DNA from: Cytophagaceae bacterium ABcell3
GTDB lineage: Bacteria > Bacteroidota > Bacteroidia > Cytophagales > Cytophagaceae
Direction of reading: 5' to 3'
DNA: 64,000 nucleotides
NCBI GenBank assembly: GCA_030913385.1
Contig: CP133159.1
Span: 5,001,001-5,065,000 of the forward strand
Position 1 is the first letter of the stretch, and each line of letters begins with the position of its first letter. The position numbers and the translations under genes are program-made. Below the pieces are notes generated by a model. That model saw only the letters and a program-made list of their open reading frames with translations. It had not been told where the DNA came from and did no database searches. Shown one piece after another: positions 4,497 through 63,410 of the stretch.

Positions 4497-4518
4497 GGGT
4501 CTGCTGAAAAACTCAAAT

Positions 4519-6069
4519 TTAACATATGTAAAAAACCGGCCCTGAGCGCTCGCCAGGCCGGTTTTTTATTGTCATCCTTTCAAATACGTCTTTCAGACCC
4601 CGAATTATGTTAAAAATTGACTTATGCCATGCTGAAAAACTCAGAAAATAGAGTGCCTGCCTGGTCAATTTGACCAGGTTGAGCACCAGGATTATTGAGG
4701 CGATCCACGTTTGGCTGGTATTCTTAAGTCTGGCACGGATACGGTTCATCCCATAGCTGTTTTTTGCTTGTCCAAACTTTCCTTCAACCGGATTCCTCTC
4801 TCCTGGACTTACGTGGTTTTCCACTGCCTTTGCGGATGGCCTGCCCAAAGGTTTGGCTGCCAGTTTTATTCCTTTTCCCTTCAACCACTTCCGGTTTTCA
4901 CGGGTGCAGTAAATTTTGTCTGCCAGTACTTTGGCAGGATAAAAACCAAACCGTTTCCGATATTTTTCAACGTAATCAACAAGATGACTGCCCTCGTTAA
5001 AAGCCTCCCAGGACACAGTGTCCAGAAAGGAAAAACCATCCACCATGCTAAGGTGGATCTTGGCTCCAAATTCAGTTTTGGCTCGTGACTTTCCCCGTAC
5101 AATAGGTCGCACATGAGGCTGATGGATACTAACAATCCGATCTGCTACATGGTGGCCCCGGTTCTTAAACATGCCAAGCTGTTGTTCATAAAGTGTCTGA
5201 ATGACCCAGTATGACCGCTGTGTACGATGACACAAAGGAAAAACCTCAAAGCTGTCCAGCTGCTTTTCAATGGTCTTGAAGTTTCTTCTAAGGTATTGGA
5301 GCTGGGCTTTTATCCCTTTGCGAATTACTTTTCTTGATGGATTCTTGTTCTGGGCCACCTTCAGATAGGTTTTACGAGCTATTTTTCTGTAAGTCCTTGG
5401 TTTCTTCCCCTGGGTATTTTTACAATGAAGCTCATCTATGATCTGTTGGGTGATTTCCCTTGCTTTGTTCAGCAGCCCCAAATCGGTTGGGTAAATGATA
5501 TCTTGAGGACAGGCAGTTGCGTCAAAGATTGCCTCTCCTTTGTTAGACTCTTGCCCACTGGCAAAGGAAGGAGGGTCATTTTTTCCTTTCGTAGTTTTGT
5601 CAACTTTTTTTGGGGCTTTTTCCATGTAAAACTCATGGATCCTTTCATTCATCGCATTGATAAGTTCCTGCCCCAACCGTTTTCTGATATCTACAAACAA
5701 AGATGGATCAAATGGAGGCTCCTTGATATAAGAACTGTACCCCAGAAAGTATTGCAGATACATGTTTTCGGTAATCTGGGCAACTGTCTCACGATCATCC
5801 AGGTTGAGGATATGCTTGATGATCACCACTCCAATCAGCACACGAGGGTTAAGCGCCGGTCTCCCTGTCTTTTTTGGAGGATTGCGTTTGTTGTAGAGAT
5901 TGACAAGTTCATCCCATGGAATTTTGTTGCTGAGCAAAACCCACCGGTTGTTGGGGTCAAGCTGATTATGAAACGGTGTCTCGAAACCAATAATTGACAA
6001 CTGGCTGGGACTTGAATATTCGCAGCGTGGTGCACGCCTTTTAGGGGTCTTCTGCATATTTCTTTGCAC
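4519..6069 (-). CDS. IS5/IS1182-like DDE transposase
   Basis: A 516-residue transposase. The N-terminal half carries the DUF772-type domain (NRWVLLSNKIPWDELVNLY, then GRPALNPRVLIGVVIIKH and YLQYFLGY). The C-terminal half is a DDE domain: EAIFDATACPQDI (first Asp), KVLADKIYCTRENRKWL (second Asp) and the NPVEGKFGQAKNSYGMNRIRA segment with the Glu. It cuts and rejoins the ends of the surrounding insertion sequence. The last 16 codons overlap a strong hairpin (4530-4567). The frame is undamaged, so it could be active and could act in trans on related non-autonomous elements in this window. Confidence 0.93.
   Translation of the reverse strand: MQRNMQKTPKRRAPRCEYSSPSQLSIIGFETPFHNQLDPNNRWVLLSNKIPWDELVNLYNKRNPPKKTGRPALNPRVLIGVVIIKHILNLDDRETVAQITENMYLQYFLGYSSYIKEPPFDPSLFVDIRKRLGQELINAMNERIHEFYMEKAPKKVDKTTKGKNDPPSFASGQESNKGEAIFDATACPQDIIYPTDLGLLNKAREITQQIIDELHCKNTQGKKPRTYRKIARKTYLKVAQNKNPSRKVIRKGIKAQLQYLRRNFKTIEKQLDSFEVFPLCHRTQRSYWVIQTLYEQQLGMFKNRGHHVADRIVSIHQPHVRPIVRGKSRAKTEFGAKIHLSMVDGFSFLDTVSWEAFNEGSHLVDYVEKYRKRFGFYPAKVLADKIYCTRENRKWLKGKGIKLAAKPLGRPSAKAVENHVSPGERNPVEGKFGQAKNSYGMNRIRARLKNTSQTWIASIILVLNLVKLTRQALYFLSFSAWHKSIFNIIRGLKDVFERMTIKNRPGERSGPVFYIC
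4530..4567. terminator. Bidirectional terminator at the transposase 3' end
   Basis: A perfect 12-bp stem (AAAAAACCGGCC / GGCCGGTTTTTT) with a 14-base loop lies inside the last codons of the transposase and just inside the left end of the insertion sequence. A and T runs on both sides allow termination in either direction, which would shield the transposase from, and block, transcription across the element boundary. Confidence 0.8.
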
Positions 6070-6197
6070 TTGGACTCCCTCAAATTCATAAAAATAGTTC
6101 TAAAATCCTCTTAATGCCGCTATTTTTTATTTCTAAGCAGACCCTATTTACATACTCCATTGCTCAGACCCATGATCTCTTTTGCCAGAATAAGAAT

Positions 6198-8464: not shown

Positions 8465-8827
8465 ATGAAACCAAAAAAATGCCTGGAATGTCAGCAATTT
8501 TTTCAAGGCAGAAGTGACAAGAAGTTCTGTTCCGACTACTGCCGCAATGCCTGGCACAACCGGCAGAATGGAGGTGCCAACCATCTCATGCGTACAGTAA
8601 ACAGCGTACTTCGAAAAAACAGACGTATATTAGCAGAATGTAATCCAGATGGGAAAGCCCGTATGTCCAAAGAAAGACTGATGGCCATGGGCTTTAACTT
8701 TAACTACTTTACCAATATATACCGGACAAATTCAGGCAAGGCCTATTACTTCTGCTATGACCAAGGATATTTAGAGCTGGAAGATGAAACAGTGACACTG
8801 GTTGTTAGACAAGAATACGTAAAGTAG
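8465..8827 (+). CDS. Small zinc-ribbon protein conserved in Bacteroidota
   Basis: A 120-residue protein starting MKPKKCLECQQFFQGRSDKKFCSDYCRNAW: a four-Cys zinc ribbon (CxxC ... CxxxC) at residues 6-26, followed by a helical region (RTVNSVLRKNRRILAECNP) and a C-terminal FNYFTNIYRTNSGKAYYF-CYDQGYLEL segment. I recall similar proteins from other Bacteroidota ending RQEYV, as this one does, so the C-terminus is natural. ATG 8465 is chosen over an in-frame start at 8420 because the upstream codons overlap the palindrome cluster and the zinc ribbon normally begins the protein. The TAG stop is formed by TA of the gene plus the first G of the element that follows. Function unknown; nucleic acid binding is plausible. 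Confidence 0.8.
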   Translation: MKPKKCLECQQFFQGRSDKKFCSDYCRNAWHNRQNGGANHLMRTVNSVLRKNRRILAECNPDGKARMSKERLMAMGFNFNYFTNIYRTNSGKAYYFCYDQGYLELEDETVTLVVRQEYVK

Positions 8828-9097
8828 GACGCGCTGAAAAACGTCCAAAATATTGATCTGTTTATATTTGTATAATTAGGAGGTATAGGTGCAAGGGTCT
8901 ATCGGTTATTTTTTATTTTCCGTGCACAGTAAATTGAGAAGCTTTTAACCCTTTTTTTGGGCTAGCCACAAGCGCACAATTTACTTTATGGCCTTACATT
9001 CGAAGTATGCCAATACGTCTTCATGTAAGGCCATGCTTAGCGTAGCCACAAGACATGCCTTGTGGCTACGCACACTTGTGACTTTTTCAGCAGGGAC
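8827..9097 (+). mobile_element. MITE-like element, copy A
   Basis: A 271-bp non-coding element, with two further copies at 60877 and 63030. The left end is GGACGCGCTGAAAAA and the right end TTTTTCAGCAGGGAC. The interior has a perfect 12-bp inverted repeat, ATGGCCTTACAT at 8988-8999 and ATGTAAGGCCAT at 9023-9034. This copy has an extra hairpin (AGCCACAAGACATGCCTTGTGGCT), making it longer than the other two. Flanks TAAAGTA and CTAAATA are a weak, decayed target duplication. The first base completes the TAG stop of the upstream gene. Confidence 0.8.
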
Positions 9098-48916: not shown

Positions 48917-49002
48917 CTCCCCCTCTTGGGCTCGAACCAACCCCGATAGCTATCGGGGCATGATTAACAGTCATGTGCCCTAACAAACTGAGCTAAGAAG
49001 GA
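48917..49002 (-). pseudogene. tRNA-Asn(GTT)-like copy 2 with long palindromic variable arm
   Basis: An 86-base tRNA-like sequence. Anticodon arm CATGA-CTGTTAA-TCATG, T arm and 3' acceptor are the same as in the normal gene at 49213, but GGGTCC between anticodon stem and T stem is replaced by the 18-bp palindrome CCCCGATAGCTATCGGGG (48941-48958). The D loop has lost a conserved G (GTTTG for GTTGG) and the D and acceptor stems carry wobble changes (TCCTTCT). Probably decaying; I call it a pseudogene, though transcription is possible since it keeps a terminator. Confidence 0.75.
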
Positions 49003-49025
49003 GTATTAAATAAAAACTAAATCAT

Positions 49026-49058
49026 AAAAAAGCCCTCTGTAGAACAGAAGGCTTTTTT
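49026..49058 (-). terminator. Terminator after tRNA-Asn copy 3
   Basis: AAAAAAGCCCTCTGT / ACAGAAGGCTTTTTT with one mismatch and a short loop, just past the 3' end of the tRNA copy at 49065. Confidence 0.75.
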
Positions 49059-49064
49059 CTAATG

Positions 49065-49150
49065 CTCCCCCTCTTGGGCTCGAACCAACCCCGATAGCTA
49101 TCGGGGCATGATTAACAGTCATGCGCTCTAACCAACTGAGCTAAGGAGGG
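49065..49150 (-). tRNA. tRNA-Asn(GTT) variant with class-II-like variable arm
   Basis: An 86-base sequence with intact D arm (GCTCAGTTGGTTAGAGC), anticodon arm with GTT, T loop TTCGAGC and discriminator G. The only large change from the normal tRNA-Asn at 49213 is replacement of the variable loop GGGTCC by the palindrome CCCCGATAGCTATCGGGG (49089-49106), which can fold into a 7-bp arm with loop AGCT. The first acceptor pair is C-A and the first T-stem pair is lost (G-G). It may be a functional tRNA with a long variable arm or a recent pseudogene. Confidence 0.6.
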
Positions 49151-49174
49151 ATATTAAATAAAAACTAAATCATA

Positions 49175-49206
49175 AAAAAGCCCTCTGTAAAACAGAAGGC
49201 TTTTTT
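49175..49206 (-). terminator. Terminator after tRNA-Asn copy 4
   Basis: AAAAAGCCCTCTGT / ACAGAAGGCTTTTT hairpin with one mismatch, directly after the normal tRNA-Asn gene on the minus strand. Confidence 0.75.
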
Positions 49207-49212
49207 TAAATG

Positions 49213-49286
49213 CTCCCCCTCTTGGGCTCGAACCAAGGACCCCATGATTAACAGTCATGTGCTCTAACCAACTGAGCTAAGGAGGA
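49213..49286 (-). tRNA. tRNA-Asn (anticodon GTT), normal copy
   Basis: A 74-base cloverleaf: acceptor TCCTCCT / AGGGGGA, D arm GCTCAGTTGGTTAGAGC, anticodon stem CATGA / TCATG with loop CTGTTAA (anticodon GTT), variable loop GGGTC, T arm CTTGG-TTCGAGC-CCAAG and discriminator G. CCA is not encoded. All stems pair. It is the promoter-proximal member of an array of four with a repeat period of 148 bp; the other three carry a palindrome in the variable loop. Confidence 0.95.
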
Positions 49287-60277: not shown

Positions 60278-60877
60278 ATGAAATTCGTCACCGCCCTTGT
60301 ACTACTACTGATTTTCGGAATATCTTGTGCCCCAAGACCACAGCAACAAACAACAGATGTCAACTTAGACGATTCTTCTCAAGTAATTCTTTTTACCAAC
60401 CATGTAACAAGGTATATACACGGACAAAAGTGGCGACAACTACTTTACCATATCCATCCAACAAAAGGAATTACTTTCTCGCCCTACACGTATATAGACA
60501 CATCAACAGCGGTTCAAATGCGTCCTGGTGGCCCTGAGGCATTCTGGACCGACACAACACGCACCTTGACCTGGGGATATGAAGATGGCACAGGGGAACC
60601 AATCCGTATGAACTTCAGGGAGTATTATGAAGAACACCTGTACCCGGTAAATTTCATGAACGCTGAAAAAGTAGCTTTTAACGAACAAATTGGCCAAGGG
60701 AATACGGTCAATAACATAGAAGAAGTTTTTCCAAATGCAGTGTTTACAGAATACCATTTTGCCGGTTTCAACCCTGAATTTGGAGGAATGGATTGGAGAA
60801 GCTTAAGAGTTGTTGTAGAGGCTTATGAAGGCAACCTATATGTGGTAGCATTAGTAAATGACCGTTGGACCATTTAG
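60278..60877 (+). CDS. Hypothetical lipoprotein
   Basis: A 199-residue lipoprotein: MKFVTALVLLLIFGISCAPR with lipobox FGISC (Cys17). The mature domain is aromatic-rich: HIHPTKGITFSPYTYIDT, MRPGGPEAFWTDTTRTLTWG, FREYYEEHLYPVNFMNAEKV, YHFAGFNPEFGGMDWRSLRV. The final strand VVALVNDRWTI ends directly at the MITE, whose first G completes the TAG stop. The fold looks like an NTF2-like or SnoaL-type domain, but this is uncertain. Function unknown. Confidence 0.78.
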   Translation: MKFVTALVLLLIFGISCAPRPQQQTTDVNLDDSSQVILFTNHVTRYIHGQKWRQLLYHIHPTKGITFSPYTYIDTSTAVQMRPGGPEAFWTDTTRTLTWGYEDGTGEPIRMNFREYYEEHLYPVNFMNAEKVAFNEQIGQGNTVNNIEEVFPNAVFTEYHFAGFNPEFGGMDWRSLRVVVEAYEGNLYVVALVNDRWTI

Positions 60878-61130
60878 GGCGCGCTGAAAAACGCCCAAAA
60901 TGTTGACTTATTTATATTTGTGTAAAAATTATGAGGGATAGGTGCAAGGTTTTTTCGGTTATTTCTTAATTTACCGTGCACAGTAAATTGAGAGACTTTT
61001 AATCCAATACTTTTTTTGGGCTAGCCACAAGCGCGCAATCTACTTTATGGCCTTACATTCAAAGTATTCCAATACGTCTTCATGTAAGGCCATGCCTATC
61101 TTGCACACTTGTGATTTTTTCAGCAGGCCC
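60877..61130 (+). mobile_element. MITE-like element, copy B
   Basis: A 254-bp element with ends GGGCGCGCTGAAAAA and TTTTTCAGCAGGCCC, clearly homologous to copies at 8827 and 63030 over its whole length (GTGCACAGTAAATTGAGA, TTTTTTTGGGCTAGCCACAA, ATGGCCTTACAT...ATGTAAGGCCAT). Flanks CCATTTA and CTATCTA agree at five of seven positions, a decayed target duplication. The first base completes the in-frame TAG stop of the lipoprotein gene. Confidence 0.88.
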
Positions 61131-61260: not shown

Positions 61261-63030
61261 ATGAGAAAAGAACAAACGACTTCCAAAACCGCTACCAAAC
61301 AACTTCTTCGGGCATTAAGTTATGCAAAACCTCAGAAGAGGACAGTCATTGGTATAATAACGCTTACACTGTTGGTCGCAGCAAGCGGTGTAGCAGAGCC
61401 GCTTATTATAAAGCATATTTTTGATAATTTAGGAACAGAAAGCCAAGCCTTAACCCAAGTAGCCATGGGCATCGGTGGATTACTAGCACTGAGCTTATTA
61501 AAAGAAACCTTTTCAGGGTTAAGCAATTGGTTAACTTGGCGTACACGAATTAATATCCACTATGGTCTGCTGGGAGCAACAGTAGAAAGAATACACCGCC
61601 TTCCATTAGACGCCCACCGCAAAGAAGGGGTTGGGTCTGTTATGACCAAACTGGAAAGAGGCATACAAGGCTTTATCACTGCCATATCAGAAATTGCTTT
61701 TAACGTATTGCCAGCATTGGCGTATTTGGTCATGGCCATCGTCATTATGATCCAGCTCGATTGGCGTATGACTATTTTGGTCCTGGCCTTTGCCCCACTG
61801 CCCACTATTATTGCAGCCTATGCAGCACCTTCTCAAACCGAACGGGAAAGGTTCTTGATGAACCGATGGGGAAAAATATACTCCAGGTTCAATGAAGTGC
61901 TTTCAGGAATTGTTACTGTCCGCAGTTTTGCCATGGAAGACTATGAGAAAAAACGTTTCTTGCAAGATGTAGATGAGGCTAATGACCGGGTAGTAAAAGG
62001 TGTTGGTTTTGACAGCCGCATAGGAGCCTTTCAAAATATTGTGGTGACCATGGCCCGTATTTCAGCCATTGCCCTAGGAGGTTATTTTGTTATCAAAGGC
62101 GAATTTCAAATAGGAACTTTAATGGCCTTCTTAGGCTATGTTGGGGGACTTTTTGGCCCTGTGCAAGGACTGACAGGCATTTATAAAACTACTCAAACGG
62201 CAAAGGTTTCCCTAGAGCATATCTTTAATATACTTGACACCCAAGACCACCTCGGAGATGCCCCTAACGCTATAGAGCCTGGGCCATTTAAAGGAGAAGT
62301 GAAATTTAGCCATATACATTTCAATTATAAAGGATGTGAAAAGCTATTGAACGGGATAAACCTGCATGTAAAACCTGGAGAATGTGTAGCCATTGTAGGC
62401 CCTTCCGGATCTGGAAAATCGACCTTAATGGCACTGCTACAACGTTTTTATGACCCTCAAGAAGGAACGGTTGAAATAGACGGCATGGATGTCCGCACGT
62501 TGAAGCAGCAAGCATTAAGAAAGCAAACAGGTGTGGTCATGCAAGATGCACTGCTGTTTAATGACAGCATAAAAAATAACATTGCTTACGGCCGCCCGAA
62601 TGCTTCAGACAAAGAAATTATTGAAGCAGCCATTGCCGCCAACGCCCATGAGTTTATTATGAAAATGGAAGATGGTTACAATACTATATTAGGCGAAAAA
62701 GGCAATGGACTTTCTGTCGGAGAAAGGCAAAGAATAGCCATAGCACGCGCCTTGCTCAAAAGCCCGCCTATCCTGATCTTGGACGAAGCTACTTCTGCAC
62801 TAGACGCGGAACTGGAAGCGAAGGTCCAAGAGGCCTTGGACAGGCTTATAAAAGGACGAACTACCTTTATTATAGCCCATAGACTGGCTACAGTGGTCAA
62901 TGCGGATAGAATTGTGGTATTCAAAAACGGTAAGATTATAGAAACAGGAACTCATAAAGACTTACTAAACGAGAATGGCTATTATGCCACACTTGTAGAA
63001 AGACAGACTAAAGGATTATTGGTAGCATAG
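61261..63030 (+). CDS. ABC exporter (fused permease and ATPase)
   Basis: A 589-residue half-transporter of the MsbA/BmrA type. Six transmembrane helices (about 28-310) are followed by the ATPase: Walker A GPSGSGKST (380-388), Q-loop VVMQDALLFNDS, signature LSVGERQRIAIARAL (LSVGE rather than LSGGQ), Walker B ILILDEATSALD and H-loop IAHRLATV. It works as a dimer at the inner membrane and exports lipids or hydrophobic compounds. The C-terminus KGLLVA is directly followed by a MITE whose first G forms the TAG stop; the flanking duplication shows the stop was TAA before insertion. Confidence 0.95.
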   Translation: MRKEQTTSKTATKQLLRALSYAKPQKRTVIGIITLTLLVAASGVAEPLIIKHIFDNLGTESQALTQVAMGIGGLLALSLLKETFSGLSNWLTWRTRINIHYGLLGATVERIHRLPLDAHRKEGVGSVMTKLERGIQGFITAISEIAFNVLPALAYLVMAIVIMIQLDWRMTILVLAFAPLPTIIAAYAAPSQTERERFLMNRWGKIYSRFNEVLSGIVTVRSFAMEDYEKKRFLQDVDEANDRVVKGVGFDSRIGAFQNIVVTMARISAIALGGYFVIKGEFQIGTLMAFLGYVGGLFGPVQGLTGIYKTTQTAKVSLEHIFNILDTQDHLGDAPNAIEPGPFKGEVKFSHIHFNYKGCEKLLNGINLHVKPGECVAIVGPSGSGKSTLMALLQRFYDPQEGTVEIDGMDVRTLKQQALRKQTGVVMQDALLFNDSIKNNIAYGRPNASDKEIIEAAIAANAHEFIMKMEDGYNTILGEKGNGLSVGERQRIAIARALLKSPPILILDEATSALDAELEAKVQEALDRLIKGRTTFIIAHRLATVVNADRIVVFKNGKIIETGTHKDLLNENGYYATLVERQTKGLLVA

Positions 63031-63282
63031 GGCGCGCTGAAAAACGCCCAAAACATTGATCTGTTTATATTTGTATAAAAATTAGGAGGTATAGGTGCAA
63101 GGGTTTTTCTGTTATTTCTTATTTTTCCGTGCACAGTAAATTGAAAAGCTTTAACCCAATACTTTTTTTGGGCTACCCACAAGCGCACAATCTACTTTAT
63201 GGCCTTACATTCGAAGTATTCCAATACGTCTTCATGTAAGGCCATGCATATCTTGCACACTTGTGACTTTTTCAGCAGGCCC
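63030..63282 (+). mobile_element. MITE-like element, copy C
   Basis: A 253-bp element, the best-preserved copy: ends GGGCGCGCTGAAAAA and TTTTTCAGCAGGCCC (rc GGGCCTGCTGAAAAA) with a perfect 7-bp target duplication TAGCATA at 63023-63029 and 63283-63289. No open frame of note inside. The internal 12-bp inverted repeat ATGGCCTTACAT / ATGTAAGGCCAT is kept. The duplication includes TA of the upstream stop codon, so the stop changed from TAA to TAG. Confidence 0.92.
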
Positions 63283-63366
63283 TAGCATAAGATAAGCTCA
63301 CAAAGTATGTCTCATGTAAGCGCATAGCACAATGTCATACTTGAGACGCTTAACAAGCATTAGCTT

Positions 63367-63396
63367 AAAAGCTGGCGATGGAAACCGCCAGCTTTT
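63367..63396. terminator. Terminator downstream of the Tudor/CarD-like gene
   Basis: A perfect 11-bp stem AAAAGCTGGCG / CGCCAGCTTTT with an eight-base loop. It lies 15 bp past the stop of the minus-strand gene at 63411 and could also stop transcripts leaving the ABC exporter and MITE C. Confidence 0.85.
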
Positions 63397-63410
63397 GCTT
63401 TATATCAATC

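Follow-up and report, generated by a model that had tools for sequence, protein, structure and literature searches.

A MITE family in Cytophagaceae bacterium ABcell3 that often rebuilds neighbouring stop codons, very probably without guided insertion

Cytophagaceae bacterium ABcell3 carries a new family of MITEs, short elements without a gene of their own that are most likely moved by transposases of an IS5-family group. Every copy begins with G directly after TA, and as a result roughly one copy in three restores, by coincidence, the stop codon of a gene next to it. We consider it highly likely that this pattern is an unguided by-product of a stop-like target motif, the loss of harmful insertions and the terminal G of the element. 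The transposase would insert at TAnnTA, less often at TAnnnTA, with A preferred outside each TA, and the preferred target TTAnn(n)TAA would thereby offer a TAA-like triplet on either strand. As both MITE ends start with G, an insertion whose outer TA belongs to an in-frame stop, TAA or TAG, would produce TAG and keep the protein. Copies inside genes or before promoters would be removed by selection, and the survivors would concentrate between convergent genes, in short gaps where stop codons make up a large share of the target sites. A terminator or RNA role would be unnecessary.

Sampling and counting

The window is the whole stretch of DNA from which the analysis started, 64,000 nucleotides corresponding to bases 5001001-5065000 of the 5.115-Mb, one-contig genome. 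Family copies were sought genome-wide with the DNA of copy C and with left-end, interior and right-end patterns, which matched at 60, 48 and 78 places, respectively. The 1.56 Mb analysed comprises the surroundings of all pattern and copy matches together with adjoining controls, and a profile search of this sample returned about 71 elements and fragments. The family count of 52 includes 47 full-length copies and five length variants with duplications, a list that is near complete for copies with recognisable ends only.

A script rebuilt the empty sites by excising every element together with one copy of its duplication. Gene calling on the rebuilt empty sequence used a hexamer model (a simple caller rather than curated annotation), and the null for the stop test consisted of all TAnnTA and TAnnnTA sites. 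Control sites come from the 1.56-Mb sample, itself centred on the elements, a centring to which the within-gap test is immune. DNA similarity recovered no full copy, and hence no sister-strain empty site, in 97 relatives, so the empty sites are inferred from the duplications. No match was obtained for an exact 24-mer in GTDB contigs, for a similarity search of plasmids or for an exact pattern in viral contigs. Across the window, Rfam recognised three tRNAs and nothing else; these are three consecutive genes on the minus strand (48917-49286).

Copies A, B and C in the window

The three window copies open with GG[GA]CGCGCTGAAAAACG, immediately 3' of TA, and the resulting TAG closes the upstream gene in frame in each case, exactly as the original prediction described. 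The features are as follows, a slash in TA/G marking the left boundary of the element.

8827..~9098, plus strand: MITE copy A, a longer form of the element that has an additional internal hairpin (9040-9071)
8825-8827, plus strand: TA/G stop made by copy A, where the upstream zinc-ribbon-like ORF ends (8827)
60877..61130, plus strand: MITE copy B; its TA/G (60875-60877) terminates the 199-aa ORF upstream (ends 60877)
63030..63282, plus strand: MITE copy C; TA/G at 63028-63030 is the stop of an ABC exporter (61261-63030)
63023..63029, plus strand: left target duplication of copy C, TAGCATA, 7 bp, exact
63283..63289, plus strand: right target duplication of copy C, TAGCATA, then A
63366..63397, plus strand: terminator-like hairpin with a T tail, now 3' of copy C, a consensus match only

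The right-hand TAGCATA at copy C precedes an A, so the exporter stop before insertion was TAA, in agreement with the earlier reading of this site. Since the duplications of the other two copies have decayed, with two mismatches each (TAAAGTA against TAAATAA at copy A, CATTTA against TATCTA at copy B), their old stops can only be given as presumably TAA and TAG, respectively. The exporter of copy C has no orthologue in the same family at E <= 1e-100. A perfect or near-perfect hairpin, TAGCCACAAGRCATGCCTTGTGGCTA, lies near the right end in copy A (9040-9071) and in several diverged relatives, and the copies bearing it appear to form a subfamily of this MITE that is older or longer.

Anatomy of the MITE family

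The consensus of the family is 254 bp long, and some 50 complete or almost complete copies are dispersed over both strands. Their terminal inverted repeats span 22-24 nt and are 77-79% complementary in copies B and C. A target duplication with at most one mismatch borders 45 of the 47 full copies, in the form TAnnTA in 35 cases and TAnnnTA in 10. A short, geneless and dispersed element with terminal inverted repeats and a target duplication has the features of a MITE.

Two copies (genome 1297525-1297947 and 2392908-2393320) contain an insert of about 160 bp whose ends, AACCTG...CAGGTT, are inverted. Its end motif, GCATATTTCAGGTTTAAT, occurs 87 times in the 1.56-Mb sample when up to three mismatches are allowed, which suggests a second small repeat, more abundant than the MITE. 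In a further copy (genome 3169240-3169494), the left 171 bp are inverted relative to the right part, and TAATTA stands on both flanks.

A putative IS5-family partner

The window also holds a candidate autonomous element, whose transposase is assigned to the IS5 family by a profile score above the curated cut-off.

4497..6144, minus strand: probable autonomous partner IS, 1,648 bp, IS5 family, one of eight identical copies
4519..6069, minus strand: transposase of the partner IS, 516 aa; NCBIfam NF033578 (IS5 family), 376.8 bits, cut-off 275

The partner IS has the ends GGGTCTGCT... and ...AGCAGACCC. An exact 6-bp TAnnTA duplication flanks all eight copies; at 4497-6144 it reads TAAATA on the minus strand. 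The MITE and the partner IS have similar terminal repeats of the GGGYCTGCTGAAAAA type, and both produce 6-bp TAnnTA duplications. At the right end the two elements are nearly the same; at the left end they are only similar, with GGGCGCGCTGAAAAA in the MITE and GGGTCTGCTTAGAAA in the partner IS. The pairing is drawn from this agreement of ends and target, and the MITE would most likely have been moved, presumably in trans, by transposases of the IS5-family group to which the 4497-6144 element belongs. Because the left repeats differ, the actual parent of the MITE may be a relative that is now extinct. A second, distant transposase, 31% identical to that of the partner IS over residues 179-470, is present in five copies (genome 4715999, 4764444, 4951681, 433889 and 4219350).

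Related ISs with this terminal repeat and with TAnnTA duplications occur in a same-family genome (L116; 58% identical, its duplication being TAATTA and its repeat GGGTCTGCTGA) and in Algoriphagus sp. PAP.12 (L169; 74% identical, with a TAACTA duplication), and the repeat and duplications recur in MITE-sized elements elsewhere in the order. Of 291 genomes of the order, 12 contain the motif TAGGGYCTGCTGAAAAA; the elements bearing it measure 70-418 bp, most of them lying between TAnnTA duplications.

Target motif and stop-codon counts

Of the positions flanking each TA on the outside, 55% hold A in non-stop insertions and 38% in controls; with A favoured there, the preferred target becomes TTAnn(n)TAA, which is TAA-like on both strands. 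The original proposal of a TA-nnn-TA target combined with selection and a harmless terminal G is thereby supported, its target being refined to TAnnTA or TAnnnTA within this motif. MITE target sites carry no hairpin signature, leaving hairpin targeting unsupported, and a weak test for avoidance of terminator hairpins (two insertions inside hairpins against 1.3 expected) gave no support either.

An in-frame stop is rebuilt by 16 of the 52 copies (31%), comprising 14 of the 47 full-length copies and two of the five length variants, and the other 36 lie away from stops. The three of three seen in the window is therefore no rule of the family, and the outcome that was to speak against the original prediction, a majority of copies away from stops or in both orientations relative to the upstream gene, was largely what the genome returned, even though stops are over-represented. 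Nor are the element and the gene always in the same strand and orientation, as had been claimed from the window: the left end forms the stop in nine cases, and in seven the right end is the stop of an opposite-strand gene. The reconstructed empty-site codon is TAA or TAG in all 16 cases, so the protein of the gene concerned is unchanged, a conclusion that for copies A and B passes through their decayed duplications.

Compared with a naive null of all non-coding target sites, stops account for 15 of 48 non-disruptive insertions where 3.45 are expected (P 8e-7). The expectation rises to 6.3 when sites are stratified by gene orientation and target motif (P 8e-4) and to 10.7 when the null is drawn from the intergenic gap that holds the insertion (P 0.016). 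The excess is highly significant against the naive null, with P about 1e-6, but within gaps the expected number comes much closer to the 15 observed. Motif, location and gap size account for most of the excess; a modest remainder persists in the last two tests, so some extra preference or selection may operate at gene edges.

Selection versus guided insertion

Only four of the 52 MITEs disrupt a called gene, though genes hold 70% of the weighted target sites. Between convergent genes there are 31 MITEs against 5% of the weighted sites, between tandem genes 16 against 15%, and between divergent genes one against 9%; survivors would cluster between convergent genes because insertions in genes or before promoters are lost. 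The eight partner IS copies, presumably young because they are identical, are distributed differently from the old MITEs: three interrupt called genes, two lie in convergent and three in tandem gaps, and none is at a stop. This contrast in gene insertions (3/8 against 4/52, Fisher P 0.04) favours selection over guided insertion, albeit with small numbers, the young comparison consisting of eight IS copies only, each 6.5 times the length of the MITE. One IS copy (genome 1503433-1505080) truncates a 2.2-kb gene at a Tyr codon, converting TAT to TA/G, so the same junction can also truncate genes. The age of MITE copies, taken from private mutations, shows no correlation with location, which counts against the explanation preferred here, since a slow selection filter might predict one.

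The original prediction had also offered insertion guided to gene ends; on such a reading the transposase or a host factor would steer the MITE to gene 3' ends or to stops as such. The strong 3'-3' preference of the MITEs and the residual stop excess, both within gaps and after stratification, would agree with such steering. Nevertheless, we regard it as very unlikely: of the eight young IS copies, which make the same target duplication, none is at a stop and three are inside genes, non-stop insertions already show the TAA-like motif on both strands, target sites lack a hairpin signature, and elsewhere in the order only two element ends that carry this terminal repeat lie at in-frame stops (L159 and L162). 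Guidance to gene ends is therefore unneeded as well as unsupported, and Tn7-like targeting of one site independently of selection does not fit a distribution in which 36 of the 52 MITEs and all eight IS copies lie away from stops. A transposase with a genuine extra preference for stops or gene ends beyond motif and selection is likewise improbable; if such a preference were true, for example through recognition of TTAnnTAA at transcription or translation ends, insertions would tend to be harmless from the outset.

Secondary structure and possible usefulness

The MITE might instead be retained between convergent genes for its usefulness, as a bidirectional terminator or a 3'-end RNA structure, a reading that seems very unlikely to us. 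Its convergent location would suit such a role, as would its right half (consensus positions 141-236), which folds as a long imperfect hairpin and varies at 1.6% per site against 8.5% in the left half (21-140), a difference of about five-fold. However, left-half variation is mostly common to several copies, as in subfamilies, so the gap is weak evidence of right-half constraint; subfamily mixing likely lies behind it, and constraint on the right half may contribute. Singleton changes per site amount to 0.63 in the left half and 0.39 in the right.

The right hairpin shows no double compensatory change, its single changes break pairs in 41 cases and keep them in 15, and its paired sites are as variable as the unpaired ones. 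In the short left hairpin (GGGCG...CGCCC), double changes number two and broken pairs 13, which is not enough to speak of covariation. Within copies B and C no terminator-like site was found, and a hairpin of that kind stands beyond copy C. Classification as a functional RNA or terminator repeat is not supported by these observations. Finally, chance is scarcely credible: with other copies at stops about 30% of the time the window could be a lucky sample, yet the enrichment persists without copies A, B and C (10 stops among 39, where 2.4 would be expected, with P about 1e-4).

Comparison with known systems

By-product or not, the family is a warning against deriving rules from three copies in one window. 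If our preferred explanation of motif, selection and terminal G is right, it would provide a countable example in which a target motif, an end sequence and purifying selection together mimic aiming at stop codons, and the TTAnn(n)TAA target with the TA/G end would be a testable case of stop-rebuilding, protein-neutral insertion. In the literature searched, a scope that left most subscription journals outside, no report was found of MITEs rebuilding stop codons in such a manner.

The partner element resembles the IS5 family in its transposase, which scores above the family cut-off and contains a DDE domain, and in terminal repeats that start with G. Named IS5 subgroups generally have other duplication lengths, and the 6-bp TAnnTA duplication found here, in Algoriphagus sp. 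PAP.12 and in the same-family genome would set these elements apart within the family.

Intergenic ISs were reportedly described by Plague in 2010 (a study cited in PMC7371109) as over-represented between convergent and under-represented between divergent genes, with selection given as the reason. The present MITEs are similarly abundant in convergent and scarce in divergent gaps, but differ in that the overlap between stop codon and target motif often places the stop itself within the duplicated sequence.

MITEs that share the ends and duplication length of a resident IS are well known, and MITEAba12/ISAba12 (PMC6382973) and RUP/IS630-Spn1 (reviewed in PMC2229807) are examples of bacterial MITEs mobilised by a resident IS; mobilisation of this kind is thus already known, and it is the family that is new. 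Like these two, the present MITE is short, geneless and mostly intergenic, with inverted repeats and a duplication of IS type; unlike them, it has 6- or 7-bp TAnnTA or TAnnnTA duplications with a TTAnn(n)TAA target, and it cleanly rebuilds stops as TAG in a third of its copies.
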